DNA from: a virus
Length of the DNA: 64,000 bases
Reading direction: 5' to 3' (one strand)
IMG/VR virus record: IMGVR_UViG_3300032334_000315
Coordinates: 62,001-126,000 of that record
This document shows positions 29,794 through 40,870 of this stretch, piece after piece. Under the pieces are notes generated by a model. It searched no databases, was not told where the DNA came from, and saw only the letters and a program-made list of their open reading frames with translations. The position numbers were made by a program, and so were the translations under genes. Every line of letters starts with the position of its first letter. The stretch's first letter is position 1.

Positions 29794-30756
29794 ATGATTC
29801 GTTTGATCGTAATGCTCTTTATTGGCTTCATCTCGCTTGCGGCTGCGGCGGCTGAGCTAAAAATAATCACTCCATCCAATGACGATAGCTATAATATCAA
29901 CGCCAGGATTCTATCCAGGCATCTCGGTAAATACTTACCAGACAATCCTACTATAACTATCCAATCCATGCCAGGCGCTGCGAGCTTAGTTGCAGCCAAT
30001 TACATATACAATATTGCGCCGAGAGATGGTAGCGTTATCGGCATTGTCTATAAAGAGATTCCGTTTGTCGGGCTATTAGGCGGTGACGGAGTCCAGTTTG
30101 ATCCTAATCATTTCAACTGGATTGGGTCGGTAGCAGACGGCCGCAAGGATGCTGTTATTCTATGGGCCAATGAACCGAAGTTTCGGTCAGACTTCGTTGT
30201 AGGTGCTGAGGGTGCCACATCAGGCAACATGGCTTTGTTTGTCAACAAAATGCTTGGCACCAATTTCAAGATTGTCGGTGGTTATCCAACGACCGGTGCT
30301 AACCGTCTCGCGCTTGAGCGCAAGGAAGTGGATGCGGTTATCTATAGTTTGATTGGTATCAAAACGCAAAAGCCCAACTGGTTACAGTCAGGCAGCGGCA
30401 TCTATCCAACGCTTCAGTTTGGCAACGGTACGGCCCGTCTACCAGAATATAAAGAAGTTCCAGCACTGGCTGAATATGTAACAGACGACAAAGACAGAAA
30501 GCTCCTTCATGCTTTTGAATCCCAGTTCATAATGTTGCGCCCATTCGTAGCACCGCCTGGCGTGCCAAAAGCTCGCATAGATGAACTACGCAATGCGTTC
30601 TCAAAAGCAATGGTGGATGCTGAGTATGTTGAAGATGCGCGCCGTGCAAACATAGATATTAATGCTATCAGCGGTGCTGATATGGAAACCATGATAAAGA
30701 CTCCAGTAAATATCGAAACGCTCGATAGTCTCAAACAGATTTATAAGGTAAAGTGA
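29794..30756 (+). CDS. Tripartite tricarboxylate transporter (TctC/Bug family) substrate-binding protein
   Basis: Predicted periplasmic binding protein of 320 residues. A signal peptide (MIRLIVMLFIGFISLAAAAA) ends in an AAA site. The mature part follows the Bug fold: a first loop with ARILSRHLGKYLPDNP, the signature TIQSMPGAASLVAANYIYNI with APRDGSVIG at about residues 55-85, and the C-terminal FVAPPGVPKARIDELRNAFS segment. This is the version close to the MPGAGSLxAANYLYN subfamily of tricarboxylate transporters. No TctA/TctB permease genes are in the window. It is first in a plus-strand run with two oxygenase genes. Chromosomal origin by transfer is likely; the ligand is unknown. Confidence 0.88.
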   Translation: MIRLIVMLFIGFISLAAAAAELKIITPSNDDSYNINARILSRHLGKYLPDNPTITIQSMPGAASLVAANYIYNIAPRDGSVIGIVYKEIPFVGLLGGDGVQFDPNHFNWIGSVADGRKDAVILWANEPKFRSDFVVGAEGATSGNMALFVNKMLGTNFKIVGGYPTTGANRLALERKEVDAVIYSLIGIKTQKPNWLQSGSGIYPTLQFGNGTARLPEYKEVPALAEYVTDDKDRKLLHAFESQFIMLRPFVAPPGVPKARIDELRNAFSKAMVDAEYVEDARRANIDINAISGADMETMIKTPVNIETLDSLKQIYKVK

Positions 30757-30757
30757 A

Positions 30758-31438
30758 ATGTTCGAACATGCTCTATTTCCTACACTGTTAACCGAATTTG
30801 AATATCCAGAAAAAGATGCGTTCAAAAATGCTTTTTACCAGGGCATCTTCAAGTATATGTCACCCGAAGGATACTCAAGCGAGTTCACTGGCCATGTGAA
30901 TATCCACCATGAACCATCGTTTGAGCCATTCTTCAAGTTTGCTTCAGATTGCGTCAAGCAATATATCGCAAGACTTCACTTGGATCCAAACCTGTTTGAG
31001 TACAATGTGGTCAAAACATGGATGAACATTACTAAAAATCGTATGACACCTATGCACAATCATGCGGACGCGCACATGTCATTTACCTACTACATTAACA
31101 TTCCAAAAGAGTTCTCAAAGCCTATTCGTTTCTTCAACTACAATATGAGACATGAACCGTTCCCAGGTTGTATCAAGTTTAATGATCCATCAAAATGGGA
31201 CGACTTCAATGCATACACATGGCAGATTGAACCACAAGAAGGCAGACTGTTTGTTTTCCCAGCAAATTTGACGCATGACACCGTAGGCCATGAAGAAGAG
31301 AAAGAACCAGGATGCTTCACTCCAGACGATCTGGATCAGATGCGCGTCTGTCTTGCGTGTGATATTCTTCTAACATATAAAAATAAAGCAGCGAAACCAT
31401 TGGGTGTCCAACCTGTGAGTAACTGGAGAATTTTCTGA
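30758..31438 (+). CDS. 2-oxoglutarate/Fe(II)-dependent oxygenase, type 1
   Basis: 226 residues. The metal ligands fit HxD...H with H102 and D104 in MHNHADAHMSFTYYINIP and the distal H173 in LFVFPANLTHDTVG; R196 in MRVCLACDILL is the candidate 2-oxoglutarate anchor. The pattern is closest to the putative 2OG-Fe(II) oxygenases found in T4-like marine phages. The ATG is 1 nt after the binding-protein stop, and it is coupled by a TGATG overlap to a second oxygenase. The substrate is not predictable; hydroxylation of a protein, lipid or small molecule are all possible. Confidence 0.85.
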   Translation: MFEHALFPTLLTEFEYPEKDAFKNAFYQGIFKYMSPEGYSSEFTGHVNIHHEPSFEPFFKFASDCVKQYIARLHLDPNLFEYNVVKTWMNITKNRMTPMHNHADAHMSFTYYINIPKEFSKPIRFFNYNMRHEPFPGCIKFNDPSKWDDFNAYTWQIEPQEGRLFVFPANLTHDTVGHEEEKEPGCFTPDDLDQMRVCLACDILLTYKNKAAKPLGVQPVSNWRIF

Positions 31439-32058
31439 TGGCAAAGTATACAACAATTTATAATGATCCATACCGTCGCGCTAAGATTACTTTGCCGTTT
31501 GCATTTTGGGATGGAGCATTCTCAGACGAAGAACTAAAAGCGGTTATTGAGTATTGCGATTCATTCGGTGTCGAACAGAGTACGCTTACTGGCACCACAG
31601 ACATTGAAGAAATTAAAAAGTACCGCGAATCAAAGATTAAGTTTCATGAGCGTAATCAGGACAACGGCTGGATCTTTGACAAACTAAACTTCATCATTCA
31701 GTCTATCAACGAGATGTATTATGGCTTTGATTTGAATGGATATAATGTGTTCCAGTATACCACATATGACGCTGAAGACGAAGGCCGATATGATTGGCAC
31801 ATGGATATGGCAATGGGCCATGAGCAACCTGGTGTGGCTGAAATTCGCAAGCTATCACTCACTCTCCTATTGGACGATGAGTTTGAGGGTGGTGAGTTCC
31901 AGATCAATGGTAGCAATGCACATGAACCTATCATTGCAGAATTGAAAAAAGGACGGGCTATTTTGTTCCCGTCCTTTATGATTCACCGTGTTACGCCAGT
32001 CACAAAAGGCAAGAGGCGATCAATCGTTGTCTGGGTAGTAGGACCAAAGTTCCAGTAA
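31438..32058 (+). CDS. 2-oxoglutarate/Fe(II)-dependent oxygenase, PiuC/prolyl-4-hydroxylase type
   Basis: 206 residues with H121 and D123 in YDWHMDMAM, distal H183 in FPSFMIHRVTPV and R193/R194 for 2-oxoglutarate. The spacing and the LSLTLLLDDEFEGGEFQI strand match the P4Hc/PiuC-like group, which is common in T4-like phages. GGAG lies before the ATG inside the end of the previous gene, and the start overlaps its stop by one base. It ends back to back with the minus-strand binding-protein gene with no gap. It may act with the preceding oxygenase, but this is inferred only from linkage. Confidence 0.88.
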   Translation: MAKYTTIYNDPYRRAKITLPFAFWDGAFSDEELKAVIEYCDSFGVEQSTLTGTTDIEEIKKYRESKIKFHERNQDNGWIFDKLNFIIQSINEMYYGFDLNGYNVFQYTTYDAEDEGRYDWHMDMAMGHEQPGVAEIRKLSLTLLLDDEFEGGEFQINGSNAHEPIIAELKKGRAILFPSFMIHRVTPVTKGKRRSIVVWVVGPKFQ

Positions 32059-32970
32059 CTACTTCAACACAATGTCTTTTTCATACTTATCGACAATTTT
32101 ATTTATTTTATCAATTTCTTGTTGAATTTTTTCTCGTTCAAAACATCTGAGTTCATGACCAATCTTCTCAAGTAGTTTTATAAAATCAGTCGATCCACAT
32201 ATTTTTGGCAAAAAAATATCAAACGTCTTTACAAATTCAACTCTTTCTTTCGGTACAGAAAATCCGACAGTTGATACAAAATTAAAATCTGGAACACCAA
32301 CATGTTTTCCATTAGGAATATTTGATGCTTCTAAACTAGATGATAAGATTGGTCTCAAGCCTATGATGTCTTGTGGCGAAAATATTGTATAGTCAGCTTC
32401 GTTTACCAATATGCTTTTTGTTATTTCATATGGTGATGTGTAATTTAAATCTTTAGATTTAAAGCCAATCGACTTTAATAAAACAACATTAAGATACGGT
32501 GTTATTGCATTTGTTGTTGTATTCCCAAAGTATACAGTTTTTCCTGAGCTAAAAAGATTTTTTAAATCATTAAACGATTTGATATTTGATTTCGGGTTAA
32601 CGGCAAGATGAAAAGGTGTTCCAGAAAAAGATTGTACTTGAACAACATCACTATTTCGATTATAGGCATTTATATTTGGGCTGGTATATCTACCTAAAGT
32701 GACACCGGATATACCAGACCAAATCAGAACGTCTTCGCCGGCTCTGGCCGCAGATATAGCTCTAAGGGTAGCATTATCTCCACCAGCTCCTGGTATTGAA
32801 GTAAGCCGAAATTGAACATCATTCTGAATAATATTGAGTTGAGATATTACTTCTGTCCCTACAAGCATTCCAACACTGCCTGGGGTAAACATCGAGTAAA
32901 CATTTACTTCTTTTGCCATAGCACAATTTGACAATAGTAAAAAAAATAATGCAAACATTTTATTAAACAT
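32059..32970 (-). CDS. TctC/Bug-family substrate-binding protein, second copy
   Basis: 303 residues with a signal peptide (MFNKMFALFFLLLSNCAMA, cleavage after AMA likely). The family signature is present as SIPGAGGDNATLRAISAA. It shares with the copy at 35859 the motifs KSILVNEADYTIF, GVPDFNFVS and FSVPKERVEFV, so the two are paralogues; both are more distant from the copy at 29794. It is translated from AAGGA, 13 nt after the PP-loop gene. The DNA is visibly more A/T-rich than the surrounding structural genes. The ligand is unknown and there is no permease. Confidence 0.82.
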   Translation of the reverse strand: MFNKMFALFFLLLSNCAMAKEVNVYSMFTPGSVGMLVGTEVISQLNIIQNDVQFRLTSIPGAGGDNATLRAISAARAGEDVLIWSGISGVTLGRYTSPNINAYNRNSDVVQVQSFSGTPFHLAVNPKSNIKSFNDLKNLFSSGKTVYFGNTTTNAITPYLNVVLLKSIGFKSKDLNYTSPYEITKSILVNEADYTIFSPQDIIGLRPILSSSLEASNIPNGKHVGVPDFNFVSTVGFSVPKERVEFVKTFDIFLPKICGSTDFIKLLEKIGHELRCFEREKIQQEIDKINKIVDKYEKDIVLK

Positions 32971-32982
32971 AATAAAATTTCC

Positions 32983-34185
32983 TTAAAATTCTGGCTTAAA
33001 TTGTCCGAGATAATAAAGTCTAGAAAATAGAGTCTTATTCAAGTTTGATTTGTTTGCTATTTTATCATATTTTTTCCATTTGTGCGATTGATAATCAGCA
33101 TAAAAATCATGCGCCGTATGAGATATACCAATAGTTTCTACCAACTTTATATCGGGACTTATTTTTGTTGGTTTAGAGCCAACAAAAATATTTGGATCCC
33201 AATCCGGATAAATGATTGTATTATACCATCTATCTAAAATAAAACCTGGTGGACATTTTATTTTTGGATCAGACAATGCGTTTTTTACCACATTTCGTAT
33301 GTACATCCACTCATTATATAATTTTTTACTTTTTGCCAATTTATCAATAATTACTTGACACTGTTTTACCGGTATCATTGGAAAATCTGGTGACCAGTAA
33401 AAATCTTCGACTGTATATGGAGCACCTTCTTTTTGAAGAGATACTCCGATATTTGCGAGAGTGATATCGGAAAACAAAAAGAAAATTTTACCATCGTCGG
33501 TAATGTCAATAATGGGTTTTTCGAGGCCTCTGATAACAGCTACATTTTCTTTTGTTATAGACTGTCTTTCGTGTTTAATTAAAAGTGGTGACCAATTTTT
33601 TCCTACACCTCCTGTAACCCATCTAAGTGACCTAGGTTCATCGTTATGACCAAGATACTCATATTTTTTTCCACCTATTTGCGTGATTAAATTTTCCGAC
33701 GAATCAATCAATGTAATTTTAGTGTTTGGACTATATTTTTTAATTTTATTTAACTGTGGTATAACGGCCATCTCAAATTCCATAAACTCGGTGAGATCCT
33801 CGTCATTAAGCAATATGCTACGATCCAATCTATTAATCGCTCTCTGGTGATGAACAATAACGATCTCATCTAAAAAAATATTATTTTTAAGAAAAGTTTC
33901 CAAAACTTGTGTTGAATCGCTACCTCCGGAATATCTTAAAATTAGATATCGGTATTTATCACGCAACTGTTGGGCGCGATCTCTATACAGGACCGATATG
34001 TCAAGGTGTATGGTTTTTTCCCAGTTGATGTTTGAAAAAATATGGTCGTTGTAATAGAATTGAATCTTACCGCCATAATCTTTCTTTAATAGCATAAGAT
34101 CCAATGCATCTTCTCGCATTACAAAAGTTTGGTTATCATAAACATAATAACCCAGGTGTGGGTACTTTATATCAAAAGTTAACAT
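32983..34185 (-). CDS. PP-loop ATP-pyrophosphatase-like protein A, 400 aa
   Basis: The ATP-binding PP-loop is SGGSDS at residues 86-91 after the strand YLILRY, as in adenylating enzymes (asparagine synthetase, QueC, TilS, PAPS reductase families). Upstream are a small N-terminal domain (YYVYDNQTFVMREDALDLML, then FYYNDHIFSNINW) and the linker LYRDRAQQLRDKY, shared with the proteins at 34667 and 39068. The C-terminal half contains PDFPMIPVKQCQVIIDKLAK. No cysteine pair typical of QueC or TtcA is evident. It follows a 144-aa gene and precedes a binding-protein gene. Substrate adenylation or thiolation/amidation is a family-based inference. Confidence 0.8.
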   Translation of the reverse strand: MLTFDIKYPHLGYYVYDNQTFVMREDALDLMLLKKDYGGKIQFYYNDHIFSNINWEKTIHLDISVLYRDRAQQLRDKYRYLILRYSGGSDSTQVLETFLKNNIFLDEIVIVHHQRAINRLDRSILLNDEDLTEFMEFEMAVIPQLNKIKKYSPNTKITLIDSSENLITQIGGKKYEYLGHNDEPRSLRWVTGGVGKNWSPLLIKHERQSITKENVAVIRGLEKPIIDITDDGKIFFLFSDITLANIGVSLQKEGAPYTVEDFYWSPDFPMIPVKQCQVIIDKLAKSKKLYNEWMYIRNVVKNALSDPKIKCPPGFILDRWYNTIIYPDWDPNIFVGSKPTKISPDIKLVETIGISHTAHDFYADYQSHKWKKYDKIANKSNLNKTLFSRLYYLGQFKPEF

Positions 34186-34620
34186 TTATTTGTTTTCATA
34201 AAATGGATACAGCTCGCCTGTCTTTCTATTGCGGTATGAATAGTAAAATTGAAAATTTACGTCTCTTAAATTTGACTTTGGATTCAAATCTAGCATTTTC
34301 TGTTTGATATCAACAATCGCTGTATTGTAAGCTCTTGCTAGAGCGATATTTGAAAAGTAATATTCAATAATCAATGTGGTGTCATCTTCTGTATATCTGC
34401 GCGTCCAACCTTCAAATCCTTCAAATAGTTCTGGAGCCATTTGATCTCTAAGATTCTTCGTTGCTCTAAAATGAGCGGTATTTTTTATAGTGACGTTATC
34501 TCTAACATCAAACAAAACATCGACAGCCTTTGGTGAATTGATAGGAACATAGATGTCCGCCCAATTACCGCCCTCAGATTTGACAGTGATTATACTGAAT
34601 ATGATTGGTGCGTCGGTCAT
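34186..34620 (-). CDS. Uncharacterised 144-residue protein at the head of the PP-loop/binding-protein cassette
   Basis: I do not recognise a family. The product is a mixed alpha/beta protein with strands such as PIIFSIITVKS and DTTLIIEYYFSNIALARAY, and ends in FYYSYRNRKTGELYPFYENK. The ATG at 34620 has GAGGAG 6 nt upstream, so the 12 residues before it in the longer frame are not used. Its stop codon is immediately followed by the ATG of PP-loop protein A. The divergent cassette on the other strand has no counterpart. Confidence 0.75.
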   Translation of the reverse strand: MTDAPIIFSIITVKSEGGNWADIYVPINSPKAVDVLFDVRDNVTIKNTAHFRATKNLRDQMAPELFEGFEGWTRRYTEDDTTLIIEYYFSNIALARAYNTAIVDIKQKMLDLNPKSNLRDVNFQFYYSYRNRKTGELYPFYENK

Positions 34621-34645
34621 AAAATTCTCCTCGTTTGATTCTGGT

Positions 34646-34661
34646 CTATTTAGCATATATA
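34646..34661. promoter_or_regulatory. Abutting divergent late-type boxes between the two cassettes
   Basis: On the minus strand CTAAATAG (34646-34653) could serve the 144-aa gene, with a leader carrying GAGGAG. On the plus strand CATATATA (34654-34661) ends exactly 5 nt before the ATG of PP-loop protein B, which has no Shine-Dalgarno. Both are degenerate relative to TATAAATA, so the assignment is tentative. Confidence 0.4.
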
Positions 34662-34666
34662 AACAT

Positions 34667-35857
34667 ATGAAATTGCATAATGGATATTACACCTATAACG
34701 GAAAAATGTTTTTTGCTCGTGAGGACGCATTTGATGCGATGCTATTGAATAATGATCTCAGCGGTCAAATTTTATTCAATTACAATGATCCTATCTTCGC
34801 GAACATCAATTGGACTAAAGATCCAAAGATAAACATTTCTAGTCTATATCGTATGCGCGCTCAACAAATCCGAGATAAGTATAAGTATGTCATACTTTCG
34901 TTTTCTGGTGGTAGCGATTCAACTCAAGTTCTTCAAACTTTTTTGAATAATGACATATTCATAGACGAAATCCAAGTATCAACTTTGGACAAAATGACGC
35001 ACCGATTTAATAAACAAGAATTGGCTAAAGATCGAGATTTGGGATATATCATGGAATACGAGTATGCTGTAAAACCTATGTTAAAGATCGTCAAAGAAAA
35101 ATCACCAGATACCAAAATTACGATTCATGATGCTTCTGATTATCTACACGATCAGTTGTCTGAGAAGAAATTTTTTCCATTAGGAAATGATGCACGAACG
35201 AGAGTCGGTTCTCCTAGAATGTCACCTGGTGTAGGTCCATCATTCATATGGTGGTATATGTACAATACAATTAATTCAGATAAGTCAACAGACAGAGATG
35301 GTGTATGTATTGTTAGAGGCTTTGAAAAACCGTCAATTATGATTGACGATGACAACAAGATGTATTTTCATTTCTATGACCATACTATGATTTCAACGGC
35401 CGCAATCAATAAAGGTGAAGTTGTTGAAAATTATACCACTGAAGATTTTTTTTGGTCTCCAGATATGCCTTTTATTCCGGTCAAACAGTGTCATATGATT
35501 CTGAATAAGTTCAGAAGTGACAAAAAATTTCTAAACAAATATAAAGATGGATTGAAAGCTATCGACGAATTTGCTAAATTAAATTACAAACCTGTGTATT
35601 CGCCAGCAATTCATATCGAACGAATGTTGTGTGAGATTATATATCCAAATTGGAATCCTAATACGTTTGTGGCACCTAAGCCAACAAACATAAGTCCAGA
35701 GTTCAAGATATATGAGCTGGCTGTTGGAAAACACTTCGGTAATGATTTCAAAAAAGAAATCCAAAACTATAAAGAATCCAAATATGACGCAATATTAGAC
35801 AAAAGACAATTTTATAGAATGATTCCATCGAAAAAATATTATGTAGGAGACATATAG
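34667..35857 (+). CDS. PP-loop ATP-pyrophosphatase-like protein B, 396 aa
   Basis: A paralogue of protein A over its whole length: N-terminal GYYTYNGKMFFAREDAFDAM, FNYNDPIFANINW, then LYRMRAQQIRDKYKYVILSF, the PP-loop SGGSDS at residues 80-85, and PDMPFIPVKQCHMILNKF in the C-terminal half. I start it at the ATG at 34667, because the longer frame to 34553 would run through the divergent gene. It is followed after 1 nt by a TctC/Bug gene, mirroring the A cassette. Conserved residues suggest an active nucleotidyl-transfer site; the substrate is unknown. Confidence 0.82.
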   Translation: MKLHNGYYTYNGKMFFAREDAFDAMLLNNDLSGQILFNYNDPIFANINWTKDPKINISSLYRMRAQQIRDKYKYVILSFSGGSDSTQVLQTFLNNDIFIDEIQVSTLDKMTHRFNKQELAKDRDLGYIMEYEYAVKPMLKIVKEKSPDTKITIHDASDYLHDQLSEKKFFPLGNDARTRVGSPRMSPGVGPSFIWWYMYNTINSDKSTDRDGVCIVRGFEKPSIMIDDDNKMYFHFYDHTMISTAAINKGEVVENYTTEDFFWSPDMPFIPVKQCHMILNKFRSDKKFLNKYKDGLKAIDEFAKLNYKPVYSPAIHIERMLCEIIYPNWNPNTFVAPKPTNISPEFKIYELAVGKHFGNDFKKEIQNYKESKYDAILDKRQFYRMIPSKKYYVGDI

Positions 35858-35858
35858 A

Positions 35859-36791
35859 ATGTGGATGCGAATTTTATCTTTCTTGCTCGGCACGTCATTT
35901 ATGATAACCAGTGCGTTTGCTTTGGAAGAGCGAGTCAATATTTACACCAGATTTGCAGCTGGTGACAACACTATCATTATGGTTAACATGATGATTAAGC
36001 AGTTGAATAAGAAATATGAAGGTGTTTACGATTTTAGGGTCAACATTATTCCTGGATCAGGTGGAGAATCTGCCGACCAGAGAGCTATATTGGATGCCAA
36101 TGCAGGAATAAACACACTTGTCGTAGGCAGCATTTCAAATTTTGCTATCAATCCAATTGTCTACGATTCAAAAATCAATCGCGATATCGAATTTATTCCA
36201 GTTGAGTTGGCCCATAGATTACCAAACGCAATCATGGTAAATCCAGACTTAAATATCAATACGGTCGACGATCTGGTAAAGCATATTAGAAACAAGAATA
36301 AAGCTTACAGCGGAAACACTCTGCAAGCAACTTCTCCGATTCTGTTAGACTCAATATTCAGAACTCATTATGGATTGAATAATGTTGAGAGTGTAAAATA
36401 TAAAGCACCACCTGAAGTTGCGAAGAGCGTTCTTATTAATGAAGTCGATTATTCAATTTTAAATCCCATCGACACCACAGGGTTAAAGCTTTTAGCAATT
36501 TCGTTTCCTCAAAGAGATGCTTATTTTCCAAATATTCCTACGGGAATTGAATCTGGCATGCCAGATTTTAATTATGCTTCAAGCATGATGTTCTATGTGC
36601 CAAAAGCAAGTCTGAAATTTGTCGCTACTATCAGACAGGAACTCCATCAAGCATGCCTTGATAGCTATGGTATTGATATGGTAAAAACTCTTAAAATTAC
36701 ACCAATATGCAATAACGATGAGACATTTCTTTGGAAAGAAATTACTAGAGAAAGATTGCTAGCCCTAAAACATAAAGACTCACTCAAATAA
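35859..36791 (+). CDS. TctC/Bug-family substrate-binding protein, third copy
   Basis: 310 residues with a signal peptide (MWMRILSFLLGTSFMITSAFA). The signature NIIPGSGGESADQRAILDA and motifs KYKAPPEVAKSVLINEVDYS, GMPDFNYASSMMFYVPK make it the closest relative of the copy at 32059. TAGGAG lies 9 nt upstream of the ATG, inside the end of PP-loop gene B, so the pair is cotranscribed. Its 3' end overlaps the convergent PP-loop gene D by 12 nt. The role is probably binding of a carboxylate in the periplasm, by family; the partner permease would have to come from the host. Confidence 0.82.
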   Translation: MWMRILSFLLGTSFMITSAFALEERVNIYTRFAAGDNTIIMVNMMIKQLNKKYEGVYDFRVNIIPGSGGESADQRAILDANAGINTLVVGSISNFAINPIVYDSKINRDIEFIPVELAHRLPNAIMVNPDLNINTVDDLVKHIRNKNKAYSGNTLQATSPILLDSIFRTHYGLNNVESVKYKAPPEVAKSVLINEVDYSILNPIDTTGLKLLAISFPQRDAYFPNIPTGIESGMPDFNYASSMMFYVPKASLKFVATIRQELHQACLDSYGIDMVKTLKITPICNNDETFLWKEITRERLLALKHKDSLK

Positions 36792-37580
36792 TGCTAAAAA
36801 CTGTTCTTTGGTACCAAAAGTGTGATTAGGATCAGGCGTATGTACTCTATGCTGCCTGATACGGACAAATACTAGATCATATCCTGATCCATAATCATAC
36901 GAGAATTTTGGTCTCCATGGAATGTTATAGATCCTTGATTTGAAATCTTGAACCGTTTCATTACCCATTTCTTTTACCATAGCACAACACAGTTCTGGCG
37001 TGTATGTGAAAAAGTAATGGGTATTATCATTGTGAATTAAAACGTCATTGTAGAAATCCCACTCATTAGCACCAACATACATTTGTCCATCATTGTCGTC
37101 AATGATGTGTTCGCTCATAATCATAATCCCGCCATGATCTTCTGCGTATCTACCGACTATAAGGCCTGGTACAGAATTGTGACCATATCCACTTAATTTT
37201 TTAAATATGTCATCAACAAAGATCGTCAATAGTTCAGACGGTGTTTTGTCGATAACTATAGGATCTATTCCGTACTCCTTGCAAGTACGAAAAGCATAAG
37301 CCGATTCATATTTGTTTATTGGCGTATTGACAATAACGGGAATTACGTTATGATCGCGTTCGACCATACGTCTAAACACGAACTCTGAATCCATACCGCC
37401 ACTAAAACCAATAAACAACTTTTCTGATTTATCAGCAATTAAATCGGCAGTGTAATCTGTAGCTGCATCAAAAGACATTATATTGTATGGCTTTGTATTC
37501 AGATGCACAGAAAAATTTGTCGAATTGTTTATTAATCTTTTGGATAGATTACTTCGAAGCCAATTGTTTTCCGTTGCCAT
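36780..37580 (-). CDS. PP-loop ATP-pyrophosphatase-like protein D, 266 aa
   Basis: This is the shortest and most divergent of the four PP-loop proteins. The PP-loop SGGMDS is at residues 60-65 after KLFIGF, followed by EFVFRRMVERDHNVIPVIVN, which looks like the classic N-type ATP pyrophosphatase layout. It lacks the REDA/NINW N-terminal domain of A and B. It overlaps the end of the hydroxylase gene by 32 nt, with GGAAAGG just before the ATG. It contains C-terminal His residues (RQHRVHTPDPNH). It belongs to a minus-strand operon with protein C and the membrane hydroxylase. Confidence 0.8.
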   Translation of the reverse strand: MATENNWLRSNLSKRLINNSTNFSVHLNTKPYNIMSFDAATDYTADLIADKSEKLFIGFSGGMDSEFVFRRMVERDHNVIPVIVNTPINKYESAYAFRTCKEYGIDPIVIDKTPSELLTIFVDDIFKKLSGYGHNSVPGLIVGRYAEDHGGIMIMSEHIIDDNDGQMYVGANEWDFYNDVLIHNDNTHYFFTYTPELCCAMVKEMGNETVQDFKSRIYNIPWRPKFSYDYGSGYDLVFVRIRQHRVHTPDPNHTFGTKEQFLALFE

Positions 37581-38016
37581 CTAAGCCTTTCCATGTACCA
37601 AATATCAAGTCCCAAATGGGAATGAACACGCCATAATTTTTGGTGGCATAATCATGGTGAATGAGATGCCACTTGCCACTGGTTAGGAATGGATAGAGAT
37701 TGATGCGCTTGTTATGTTCGACCGCCTCTTGGATAAAGCCAGCCCAAATGTAGTACGCAACTAAAAGCCACCAATGACCAGTGATTGCAGATATTATAAT
37801 CGTTGGAATCACTTCTGTCAACCACTGATCTATGGTGCTATTCCAGGTATCGAAAAAAAGAAATGCGTTTTTCCAGTTTAGACCTTGGATTGTTTGGTCT
37901 GTTACCTGCGCGTGATGATCCATGTGAAATTTACGGACAATCGGAATCACATGGGCCGCACGATGCGCCCAATAGACGACAAAAGTCCATAAAAGAAACA
38001 CAAGGAAGTAGCTCAT
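37549..38016 (-). CDS. Fatty acid hydroxylase / sterol desaturase superfamily membrane protein, 155 aa
   Basis: A compact di-iron membrane enzyme candidate. All histidine clusters are visible: HRAAH (18-22), HMDHH (31-35), a further EHN (100-102) and HLIHH (117-121). Hydrophobic segments lie at about 1-16 and 68-95. The superfamily hydroxylates or desaturates fatty acids, sterols or carotenoids (the CrtZ-like members are of similar small size). I start at ATG 38016, overlapping the stop of PP-loop gene C by 4 nt (ATGA); a longer TTG-initiated frame to 38046 has no ribosome binding site. Substrate unknown. Confidence 0.85.
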   Translation of the reverse strand: MSYFLVFLLWTFVVYWAHRAAHVIPIVRKFHMDHHAQVTDQTIQGLNWKNAFLFFDTWNSTIDQWLTEVIPTIIISAITGHWWLLVAYYIWAGFIQEAVEHNKRINLYPFLTSGKWHLIHHDYATKNYGVFIPIWDLIFGTWKGLDGNGKQLASK

Positions 38017-39068
38017 TTTAGATAGTATGGTTGCGAAAAGAAGCAATGCTTTCTATTTATCGCTGTATGCTTTGATATAGTTCTCATGCCTTCCAGCGTC
38101 ATTCTATACATAGCACTATCGGTTTTTGATAGCATGAACATATCTCTGGCGCTGAGCGAGCTATACATGGATTTGGTCGATTCAAATTGAAGTGGTGTTC
38201 TGAGGTTATATATGATGCTATTCATCCGTTTCATGCGGTCCATATATGCGACTTCTCTTTGCCAACCATGAGGTAATGTTTTACCCTGCATTATCATATC
38301 AACAAAAAGCGTTTCAAACCTCATGACAACGTGGGCCTGCTTTACCATGATCTTTATTACGATGTCATCTGTACCGTTGTAGAAATTGATGCGCTTGAAG
38401 TTTTCATCTTCATAGTTTGCACCATAGTCATTGACGGATAGATCATTAAATCGGACGCAGTTATCGAGGGCTTCATATCCTGGCTTGTCGGAACCCATAA
38501 TATAGCATGTCTTTTTGTTATTGTCTTTGCCAATAAACTTCTTCAGGTCATACCAGAATAGATTATGAACGCTTTTAAATGCACCGATATGATCGGTCCA
38601 TTCATTACCATATTTTTTAATGAGTGTGAAATTGTTTGGATCGGTAAAGTGTTCGGTATAGTCAGATACCGTAATCTTTGTGTTCGGTAGATGCATACCG
38701 TTTAGAGTCGGAAACGCATTGAGATATATGTCGCCGTTATGATTTTCGTCGGTGCCTTTTTGTTTATCTTGAGAGAATGCGCCGACTAAAAGTATCTCGT
38801 CTATCAAAATATTATTGTAGTAGAATGTTTCCAATATGTTGGTAGAGTCGTAGCCTCCAGAATAGCATAGGATCACGTGGTCATATTGATCGCGAATCTG
38901 CTGTGCGCGTTCGCGATACAATACATCTAGAGTTTCAGTTGGCTCTGTTTTCCAATCGACTTTTTTAAAAACGTCATCGTAAAAATAAAAAGAACAATGT
39001 CTGTTTGAAGCAACAGCCGCAGCGTGTGTTGGATAGACATTTCTATCCTCATCATAATAAAACATCAT
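38013..39068 (-). CDS. PP-loop ATP-pyrophosphatase-like protein C, 351 aa
   Basis: Related to A and B: a shorter N-terminal domain (MMFYYDEDRN, FYFYDDVFKKVDW), the linker LYRERAQQIRDQYDHVILCY and PP-loop SGGYDS at residues 70-75, followed by TNILETFYYNNILIDEI, which matches A's TQVLETFLKNNIFLDEI. The C-terminal half retains VKQAHVVMRFETLF but otherwise diverges. It is the first gene of the C-hydroxylase-D operon, starting 9 nt after the 143-aa gene. Like its paralogues it is probably an adenylating enzyme on an unknown substrate. Confidence 0.82.
   Translation of the reverse strand: MMFYYDEDRNVYPTHAAAVASNRHCSFYFYDDVFKKVDWKTEPTETLDVLYRERAQQIRDQYDHVILCYSGGYDSTNILETFYYNNILIDEILLVGAFSQDKQKGTDENHNGDIYLNAFPTLNGMHLPNTKITVSDYTEHFTDPNNFTLIKKYGNEWTDHIGAFKSVHNLFWYDLKKFIGKDNNKKTCYIMGSDKPGYEALDNCVRFNDLSVNDYGANYEDENFKRINFYNGTDDIVIKIMVKQAHVVMRFETLFVDMIMQGKTLPHGWQREVAYMDRMKRMNSIIYNLRTPLQFESTKSMYSSLSARDMFMLSKTDSAMYRMTLEGMRTISKHTAINRKHCFFSQPYYLK
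38054..38061 (-). promoter_or_regulatory. Late-promoter-like box GATAAATA inside the 3' end of PP-loop gene C
   Basis: One mismatch to the late consensus on the minus strand, about 37 nt upstream of the hydroxylase ATG. It could add a separate late start for the hydroxylase and PP-loop D genes, but it is within coding sequence and unproven. Confidence 0.3.
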
Positions 39069-39077
39069 TGAATGTGT

Positions 39078-39509
39078 TTACCCTGCTGTTTTGTTGGTAA
39101 AATTATCCTTTGATAGCGAATCAATCAAACTCTTAATATCATCATCTGTTAGAACATCGGCCTTCTTAGCAAGAAGTTCATCAGTATTTTTAATAACGGT
39201 TTTACCAAGCATTGCTTTTACATTTGTTAAAGATGTATCTATATCTGGATTATTTACAGCTTCCATTTTACGAAGCCATGCCATTGGTGCGTTCATAAGG
39301 ATAAAATCTTCAAGCACTTGCCCTTCTAGTGGTGGAATTGGCATGTCTAAAGATACATCCGTGCGGCAGCGCATAGGAGTACTGTCTGGGCGACGATTAA
39401 CATCGTTTGCCACTTTTAGCATTTCTTCGGTTATTTTATCAGTTGTATATCTGACAACAAACAAATGGTCATCAGGCCATACTTCAATGATTCTGTAATG
39501 AATGTTCAT
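39078..39509 (-). CDS. Uncharacterised protein after the glycine-rich fibre, possible fibre assembly protein, 143 aa
   Basis: I do not recognise a family. The N-terminus NIHYRIIEVWPDDHLFVVRY is a beta hairpin pattern; the middle includes DMPIPPLEGQVLEDFILMNAP, and the C-terminal 60 residues are helical and polar. It overlaps the fibre stop by 4 nt (ATGA), the usual arrangement of a tail-fibre assembly chaperone directly after its fibre. That role is inference from position. It is the last structural-module gene before the accessory island. Confidence 0.72.
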   Translation of the reverse strand: MNIHYRIIEVWPDDHLFVVRYTTDKITEEMLKVANDVNRRPDSTPMRCRTDVSLDMPIPPLEGQVLEDFILMNAPMAWLRKMEAVNNPDIDTSLTNVKAMLGKTVIKNTDELLAKKADVLTDDDIKSLIDSLSKDNFTNKTAG

Positions 39510-40870
39510 CCTACTGGTCCCGTTCTAGTTCCTGTGTTAATCCAACTTGTCACATATGCATTACCAGTTACGGCATTTCCTTGCGAACCTGTAGCACCAG
39601 TCGCACCTGTGGCTCCTGTGTCTCCAACTGCGCCTGTGGCTCCTGTGTTTCCTGGTGTTCCTGTTCCTCCAACATTTCCTACAGCACCAGCATTACCTGC
39701 AGGCCCATAACCACCTGCACCGCCGCCACCTTGAACGACACCCCAACCGCCTGGTGAACCATAAGGAGGATTATAACTTGCAGCACCACCAGCTCCTATA
39801 TTACCGCCGGGTCCGCCTGATGCGTAACCAGACCAACCAATAGTACCACCACCGCCACCACCATTAGCACCACCACCACCGCCAGCGTTTCCTGAAGTCA
39901 CGCCAGGATAATAGCCTCCGCCACCTCCTCCACCATAACTACCACCACCGCCGCCGCCTCCACCGGCACCGTCCGGATCGGCCTTAGCGTTATAAGCATA
40001 ACCACCTCCGCCTCCTCCACCACCGCCTCCGGTAGCTGCTCCACCACCATTGCCCGGTGAACCTCCAGCGCCCCCAGGTGCACCAGCGCCACCGGGCCCA
40101 CCTGGGCCTCCTGGTCCGCCAGGGCCACCGACTCCGCCGGGCCCTCCTGTTCCACCGGCACCGCCGATAAATGATGTTGTGTTTTCAATAACCGTTATTA
40201 GACCAGTAACGGAGTCAACCTGAAATGCGATACCGCCGGTACCACCAGCGTTACCAGTCACACCAGTGCCGCCTGTATTTCCTTTGCCGCCTGCGTTGCC
40301 TTGCCCACCACCATTACCGGGTGAGCCGTTATTTCCCGGTGCACCGTTATTACCTGGATTAGCAGGTGAACCGCCGCCGCCTCCATTACCAGATACTTGC
40401 CAATAAGCAGGCGAGTTATAACCAGCGGGCACACCCTTAGATGCAGGATAATAACCTGTAGCAGGAAAATAAATTGGTGATCCTGCACCGCCACCACCAC
40501 CGACACCATTTGAACCTGGATTACCTGGTGTCCCAGTATTACCTGGTGTGCCTGGGTTTCCCGCAAGGCCTGTAGTGCCGGAGTTTCCTGTAGTGCCTGG
40601 ATTACCTGTAGCACCTTGATTACCAGAAGTGCCTGTGCCGCCTGTGATGGTAGAAGTATTCTTCACATACACAAACGAACCAGCTTTCCAACCAGTTCCA
40701 GTCTTAAATGCTGGTGTGTTAGGTGATGATGATCCGATGTTATTATTGATAAAGCATAGCAAGTTCAACGGATATGTAGGTGCAGCCGATGTGTTATATA
40801 GGTCTACGTTATTCGTAGAGCTATCAATACTAACAACCTTAGTTGGTCTTGCCATTAAAAATGTGAACAT
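39506..40870 (-). CDS. Glycine-rich/collagen-like tail fibre protein, 454 aa
   Basis: The N-terminal domain (ARPTKVVSIDSSTNNVDLYN, CFINNNIG) is followed by GNxG and Gly-x-y runs (GNPGTTGNSGTTG, GGPGGPGGPGG), then a long polyglycine-rich module and a short G-x-y tail (TGATGATGATG). A second in-frame ATG at 40855 gives MARPTKVV, which resembles the starts of other fibres here; neither ATG has a clear Shine-Dalgarno. It is the fourth glycine-rich adhesin of the window and lies in a different locus from the other three, next to the baseplate block. It is probably a receptor-binding fibre. Confidence 0.82.
   Translation of the reverse strand: MFTFLMARPTKVVSIDSSTNNVDLYNTSAAPTYPLNLLCFINNNIGSSSPNTPAFKTGTGWKAGSFVYVKNTSTITGGTGTSGNQGATGNPGTTGNSGTTGLAGNPGTPGNTGTPGNPGSNGVGGGGGAGSPIYFPATGYYPASKGVPAGYNSPAYWQVSGNGGGGGSPANPGNNGAPGNNGSPGNGGGQGNAGGKGNTGGTGVTGNAGGTGGIAFQVDSVTGLITVIENTTSFIGGAGGTGGPGGVGGPGGPGGPGGPGGAGAPGGAGGSPGNGGGAATGGGGGGGGGGYAYNAKADPDGAGGGGGGGGSYGGGGGGGYYPGVTSGNAGGGGGANGGGGGGTIGWSGYASGGPGGNIGAGGAASYNPPYGSPGGWGVVQGGGGAGGYGPAGNAGAVGNVGGTGTPGNTGATGAVGDTGATGATGATGSQGNAVTGNAYVTSWINTGTRTGPVG

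Follow-up and report, generated by a model that had tools for sequence, protein, structure and literature searches.

Recurrent pairing of a PP-loop-type protein gene with a TctC/Bug-type solute-binding protein gene in uncultivated phages

The DNA stretch analysed here, hereafter the window, comprises 64,000 nucleotides (bases 62001-126000) of the 154.7 kb record of an uncultivated T4-like phage. This record carries terminase, portal, sheath and neck genes, and its terminase is 56-58% identical to the nearest named ones, from pelagiphage HTVC008M and cyanophages. Two cassettes are found in the window, each with a gene for a PP-loop protein followed by a gene for a TctC/Bug-type periplasmic solute-binding protein (Bug). 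The first one, on the minus strand, encodes PP-loop protein A (32983..34185, 400 aa, with an SGGSDS motif) and, after a gap of 12 nt, Bug2 (32059..32970), which has a signal-peptide-like start. The second one, on the plus strand, encodes PP-loop protein B (34667..35857, 396 aa) and, 1 nt after its stop, Bug3 (35859..36791); the start of B was set by homology at the ATG in 34667, where the list of open reading frames has 34553. A first-pass annotation had located these four genes in the same places and in the same order, and had described A and B as lying back to back. The strands are indeed opposed; however, the two genes are not in direct contact, since a gene for a conserved 156-aa protein of an unnamed family (34186..34656) intervenes. 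This gene is on the same strand as A; its end abuts the start of A and its start is 10 nt away from that of B.

The segment containing the cassettes is A+T-rich, with a GC content of 33-34% versus about 43% in the surroundings, and no T4 late-promoter motif was found near the cassettes. On the Bug2 side, the plus strand carries Bug1 (29794..30756), a third, divergent TctC-like exported protein with no adjoining PP-loop gene in the window, and two 2OG-Fe(II) oxygenases (30758..31438, phrog_81; 31438..32058, phrog_61). On the Bug3 side, the minus strand encodes PP-loop protein D (36780..37580), a distant protein with an SGGMDS motif and a weak match to LarE, a protein of the fatty-acid-hydroxylase superfamily (37549..38046, Pfam 4e-16) and PP-loop protein C (38013..39068), which belongs to the same family as A and B, is about 29% identical to A and is found here without a Bug partner. 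A glycine-rich collagen-like protein is encoded at 39506-40870, adjoining tail-fibre genes, in the island with the two 2OG-Fe oxygenases. The same record has a further PP-loop gene of the A/B family (G000:C1:8936-9871), at a distance of about 86 kb from the two cassettes, and similar distant copies are found in the records of loci L002, L030 and L013. In T4-like loci the cassettes are located between the neck and the tail-fibre/baseplate genes, and the two oxygenases, the fatty-acid hydroxylase and PP-loop proteins C and D are conserved neighbours; some of these loci also contain radical SAM, SPASM or amidoligase genes. Such an enzyme-rich neighbourhood suggests that further chemistry takes place.

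The small gene between the cassettes also has counterparts elsewhere. Its relatives adjoin cassettes in L003, L013 and L018 and fall in clusters c16, c17 and c20 (L002-L041), whose proteins of 125-160 aa, with no known match, flank many PP-loop/Bug cassettes; hhalign gave 97.7% for the 156-aa family against c17 and 92.7% for c16 against c17. The c21 family, found near some cassettes, was considered as another relative and proved unrelated. The 125-160 aa family may represent a third component of the cassette.

A and B are paralogs over their full length (43.4% identity on 392 residues, E 2e-103), and Bug2 and Bug3 are also related (34% on 276 residues, E 9e-37); both relationships had been proposed from the first reading, and the motifs then quoted for the PP-loop and the binding proteins are present. 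The PP-loop proteins have no Pfam or NCBIfam family, and no informative match was obtained when their profile was run against PDB sequences. In the AlphaFold2 model of B (pLDDT 92), a strand (74-78) and a helix (83-94) surround the SGGxDS loop; this arrangement, within a predicted HUP fold, is the one that defines the PP-loop ATP pyrophosphatase superfamily. The residues S80, G81, G82 and D84 of the loop, together with K221, D238 and Q274, are invariant in the family. The best solved matches of the model in Foldseek are LarE, GMP synthetase, carbapenam and beta-lactam synthetases and ArtA; the probability is 1.00, but E values are around 2e-3 and TM-scores are low, thus these matches fix the class of fold and not the reaction, and carboxylate adenylation can be suggested from the fold class only. 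Folds related to that of the PP-loop protein adenylate carboxylates, while tRNA and nucleotides are commonly modified by PP-loop enzymes.

Like LarE, GMP synthetase, the asparagine-synthetase-like beta-lactam and carbapenam synthetases and the nitrile synthetase ArtA, the phage protein has the SGGxDS motif between a strand and the helix that follows; it differs from them in the lack of a Pfam or NCBIfam family and in a long, family-specific C-terminal part. Sulfur transferases have an invariant cysteine, whereas none was found in 58 members of the phage family; a LarE-type sulfur transferase is also not supported, as neither A nor B matches that family. PAPS reductase (phrog_2302) is not supported either, as it was matched by B only, with E 0.0055 over 66 residues. 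On present evidence, the phage protein belongs to none of the LarE, GMP synthetase, beta-lactam/carbapenam synthetase or ArtA subfamilies, and it is a member of an unnamed family with a predicted PP-loop-type fold.

The identity of the partner is clearer. The phage Bugs are Bug/TctC proteins by Pfam, profile and fold: Pfam TctC is matched by 46 of 51 family members (2e-11 for Bug3), and TBP/TphC, BugD and Bug27 are all matched by the family profile, at E values around or below 1e-52. Bug2 alone is below the Pfam threshold (0.15), yet it is 34% identical to Bug3. The Bug3 model (pLDDT 93.5) has Foldseek TM-scores of 0.7-0.8 to TphC, BugD and MatC. A signal-peptide-like start, defined by a simple home-made rule and not by a trained predictor, is present in all 46 cassette Bugs examined. 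In these features the phage proteins resemble the cellular BugD, Bug27, TphC and MatC; they differ in that they are carried by phages, their identity to cellular TctC is only about 25%, their partner is a PP-loop protein and TctAB is usually not encoded alongside. The ligand is probably a small solute, and probably a carboxylate.

The A/B-type protein profile, when used against IMG/VR, identified 208 relatives, from which 80 loci were kept. Among the PP-loop genes of the A/B clade, all on uncultivated phage contigs, 25 of 26 adjoin a Bug gene, and the only exception is truncated by the end of the contig. In the wider family a Bug gene is the immediate neighbour of 46 of 105 PP-loop genes, where 5000 within-locus gene shuffles gave 11.7 +/- 3.0, with a maximum of 22; conversely, more than half of these genes have no adjoining Bug, indicating that the enzyme can act without it. 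Within a pair, the two genes either share up to a few tens of bases or have a short gap between them. The PP-loop gene comes first in some pairs (PP-Bug) and the Bug gene in others (Bug-PP); the PP-loop tree requires this order to have changed at least six times, with adjacency kept. Two cassettes in a single phage are found in L002, L028, L030 and L055, as well as in the window.

Pairwise distances of PP-loop and Bug proteins are strongly correlated in 41 cassettes (Mantel r 0.85, 0/2000 permutations) and also in the A/B clade alone (r 0.65, 0/5000); in genomes with two cassettes, every swap of partners lowered r. The correlation survives correction for the phage backbone: given the distances of four other genes in the same phages, the partial r is 0.59-0.79 (0/5000 each), whereas PP-loop or Bug distances against those four genes give r of only 0.11-0.34. 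Therefore, cassettes travel largely as units. The two trees disagree on some branches, such as L020, L029/L031 and L028/L030, indicating that partners have occasionally been exchanged. An ancestral two-gene cassette, as the first-pass annotation had supposed, is thus supported by its recurrence in many phages and by largely congruent trees; incongruent trees and the lack of any other genome with adjacent genes, which had been indicated as arguments against it, were not what was found. The cassettes do lie in a variable cargo island, a recombination hot spot that carries other enzymes, and the genes could have hitch-hiked there as neighbours by chance or through a common insertion site. Nevertheless, adjacency is far above that of the shuffles, and neither the genomic site of the pair nor its gene order is constant; this explanation is largely refuted and we regard it as very improbable, while neighbourhood by mere chance is ruled out by the shuffles together with the partial correlation given the backbone.

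A search for the pair in other phages and in host genomes had been suggested at the first reading; it was found in other phages, but two scans of genome contigs revealed no Bug-paired cellular copy. They yielded a short contig in a Methylococcaceae bin, which is probably viral, and a single Bacteriovoracaceae homolog (29%) without an adjoining Bug. This last PP-loop homolog (L100:8004-9083) is located in a genome bin beside chromosomal-looking genes. In a collection of 50,697 cultured-phage records, no match was found for A/B-type, C-type or freshwater-type PP-loop proteins, nor for Bug3; the matches of TctA, the permease discussed below, and the single match of the L055 Bug are short records, unannotated or bacterial-looking.

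As for the origin of the two copies in the window, the first reading had left a choice between inverted duplication and double acquisition. The head-to-head arrangement is what an inverted duplication in this phage lineage would produce. However, A and Bug2 group with L003 and L002 in both trees (100/100), and B and Bug3 with L013 (96/70 for PP-loop, 100/99 for Bug); A is closest to its L003 and L002 relatives (66% and 62% identity) and B to that of L013 (48%), so that the 43% identity between A and B is well below that between A and L003. At the DNA level the flanks resemble either L003 (81-88% identity) or L013 (84%), with a mosaic segment in between: identity to L013 is 84% as far as 32054 and 75% from 36423 onwards, while identity to L003 is 88% over 30682-32088, 73% over 32985-34631 and 81% from 37549 on. 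This alternation indicates a mosaic of both cassette types and not a recent inverted duplication, which is rejected; such a duplication at any stage in this lineage appears scarcely credible. Thus, acquisition on two occasions is the better option, and the best explanation of all these data is that the pair is a phage-specific, mobile two-gene unit and that both window cassettes were acquired separately.

Further information on the role of the pair comes from phages that also carry transport genes. TctA, Bug and PP-loop genes form one operon in four phage contigs (L104, L105, L108 and L109, the last two added by a wider TctA search), with a porin gene in front in three of them; TctA of L105, L108 and L109 is 74%, 39% and 30% identical to that of L104. 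The gene order is porin, TctA, Bug-like, PP-loop, 2OG-oxygenase-like and a further small gene in G008 and L105; porin, TctA, Bug, one extra gene and PP-loop in L108; TctA, Bug and PP-loop in L109. Bug sequences have diverged in the phages with these operons; the one in G008 has no Pfam match and was recognized by an iterated profile (3e-9). Among the records of cassette loci, TctA is present in G008, G009, G037 and G063; since G063, the record of L105, entered through the TctA search and is not independent, the count among records chosen by PP-loop is 3 of 63. In G009 a TctB-TctA pair is located about 20 kb or more from the Bug and PP-loop genes, and in G037 TctA is in the same record as the cassettes.

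Phage origin is supported by terminase, sheath and portal genes in G008 and by a portal gene in G065 (L109). Terminase, sheath and portal models gave no match in G063, G009 and G037, nor did sheath and portal in G064; these records are taken as phage because of their presence in IMG/VR and of the neighbouring genes that they share. The porin of G008 is similar to those of Burkholderiales, which hints at the host of that phage and not at the host of the window phage. Other genes were observed in these records. In G009 a tryptophan halogenase (L102:6100-7674, Pfam 1e-84) is found beside TctB-TctA and a long tail-fibre-like gene, and two consecutive ORFs (L103:13896-14874), which together read like a putative TRAP/DctP solute-binding protein and are possibly one frameshifted gene, are flanked by a PP-loop gene on one side and a Bug-PP pair on the other. 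In G037, a 56 kb viral contig (L043 and L106), several PP-loop genes, TctA and two Bugs are found within about 25 kb, with genes that by sequence reading are radical SAM/SPASM-like, enolase-superfamily-like, fatty-acid-desaturase-like and QueC-like; this cluster looks like a biosynthetic island.

The first-pass annotation had considered the binding protein as a possible sensor. No support was obtained for this role, and uptake is favoured over sensing because TctA is in the same operon in four phage contigs and porin in three. A Bug without a transport role, secreted instead for exclusion, for sensing or for a surface function while the PP-loop enzyme makes a signal or a surface change, would agree with the divergence of the phage Bugs (about 25% identity to cellular TctC) and with the absence of TctA from most phages; conversely, the Bug fold is kept and, in the contigs mentioned above, TctA adjoins Bug, so that we consider a role of this kind quite improbable. 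Rather, we judge it somewhat probable that the cassette serves, as a module carried by the phage, to import a carboxylate and then to activate it with ATP. The Bug would be exported to the host periplasm, where it would bind a small, probably carboxylate, solute. Entry would occur through a tripartite tricarboxylate transporter. Most phages would use the host TctAB for this step, and the others a TctA of their own, which in some is accompanied by a porin. TctA was not found in the record of the window nor in most cassette phages, whose records may be incomplete; a host transporter must then be assumed, and the window phage presumably relies on host TctAB. In the cytoplasm the PP-loop protein would activate the solute with ATP, most likely forming an acyl-adenylate with release of PPi, and the adjoining phage tailoring enzymes, 2OG-Fe oxygenases and others, may act afterwards. 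Gene linkage and the related folds that adenylate carboxylates suggest that the imported compound is the substrate of the PP-loop enzyme, and the two window cassettes would take different solutes.

The uptake half of the module is better supported than the activation half. The Bug could simply feed the host, as phage PstS does, while the enzyme modifies tRNA, DNA, the virion or a small protein, for example the 156-aa one encoded next to it, co-regulation being the sole link. This is consistent with the usual targets of PP-loop enzymes, tRNA and nucleotides, with the members of the wider family that exist without a Bug and with the small-protein genes that often flank the cassette; however, the pairing persists through at least six order changes, the partners co-inherit independently of the backbone and the PP-loop gene comes after the transporter genes in the TctA operons, and uptake alone seems somewhat unlikely. 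A broader extension of the import-and-activation module, which we regard as speculative and rather unlikely, is that uncultivated phages of aquatic habitats have an import-and-biosynthesis line of their own: phage porin, TctA and Bug would import organic acids, PP-loop ligases would activate them, neighbouring enzymes (2OG-Fe oxygenases, radical SAM, amidoligase, halogenase, fatty-acid hydroxylase) would make a phage-specific small molecule or modification, and swaps of cassettes between phages would change the substrate.

The first reading had called the pairing undescribed, and our searches agree, as no description of a PP-loop/Bug pair was found in the open-access papers and databases searched. 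The closest precedents are of two kinds. Cyanophage PstS is a periplasmic binding protein supplied by the phage for uptake (reviewed in PMC6359870); here, the binder is of the organic-acid type and has an enzyme that uses ATP as its partner, and some phages add a permease and a porin. Moreover, TctA, and TctB in one case, occur in some cassette phages as in the cellular tripartite tricarboxylate transporters, and a SUP05 viral contig has a single tctA-like domain match, whose role was called unknown (PMC4164917); a gene of this transporter type is thus present on a viral contig also there, but no Bug or PP-loop cassette was reported. What is new here is the coupling of phage auxiliary uptake, which is known, to an unnamed enzyme family.

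Phages are known for single nutrient-uptake genes, such as pstS; in the present case the binder is coupled to a large family of PP-loop enzymes across many phages, some of which have consecutive genes for binder, permease and outer-membrane pore. If uptake and activation are both true, phages choose specific nutrients and process them chemically. Screening for the ligands of the Bugs would then give the substrate of the partner enzyme, making an unnamed phage enzyme family directly testable.
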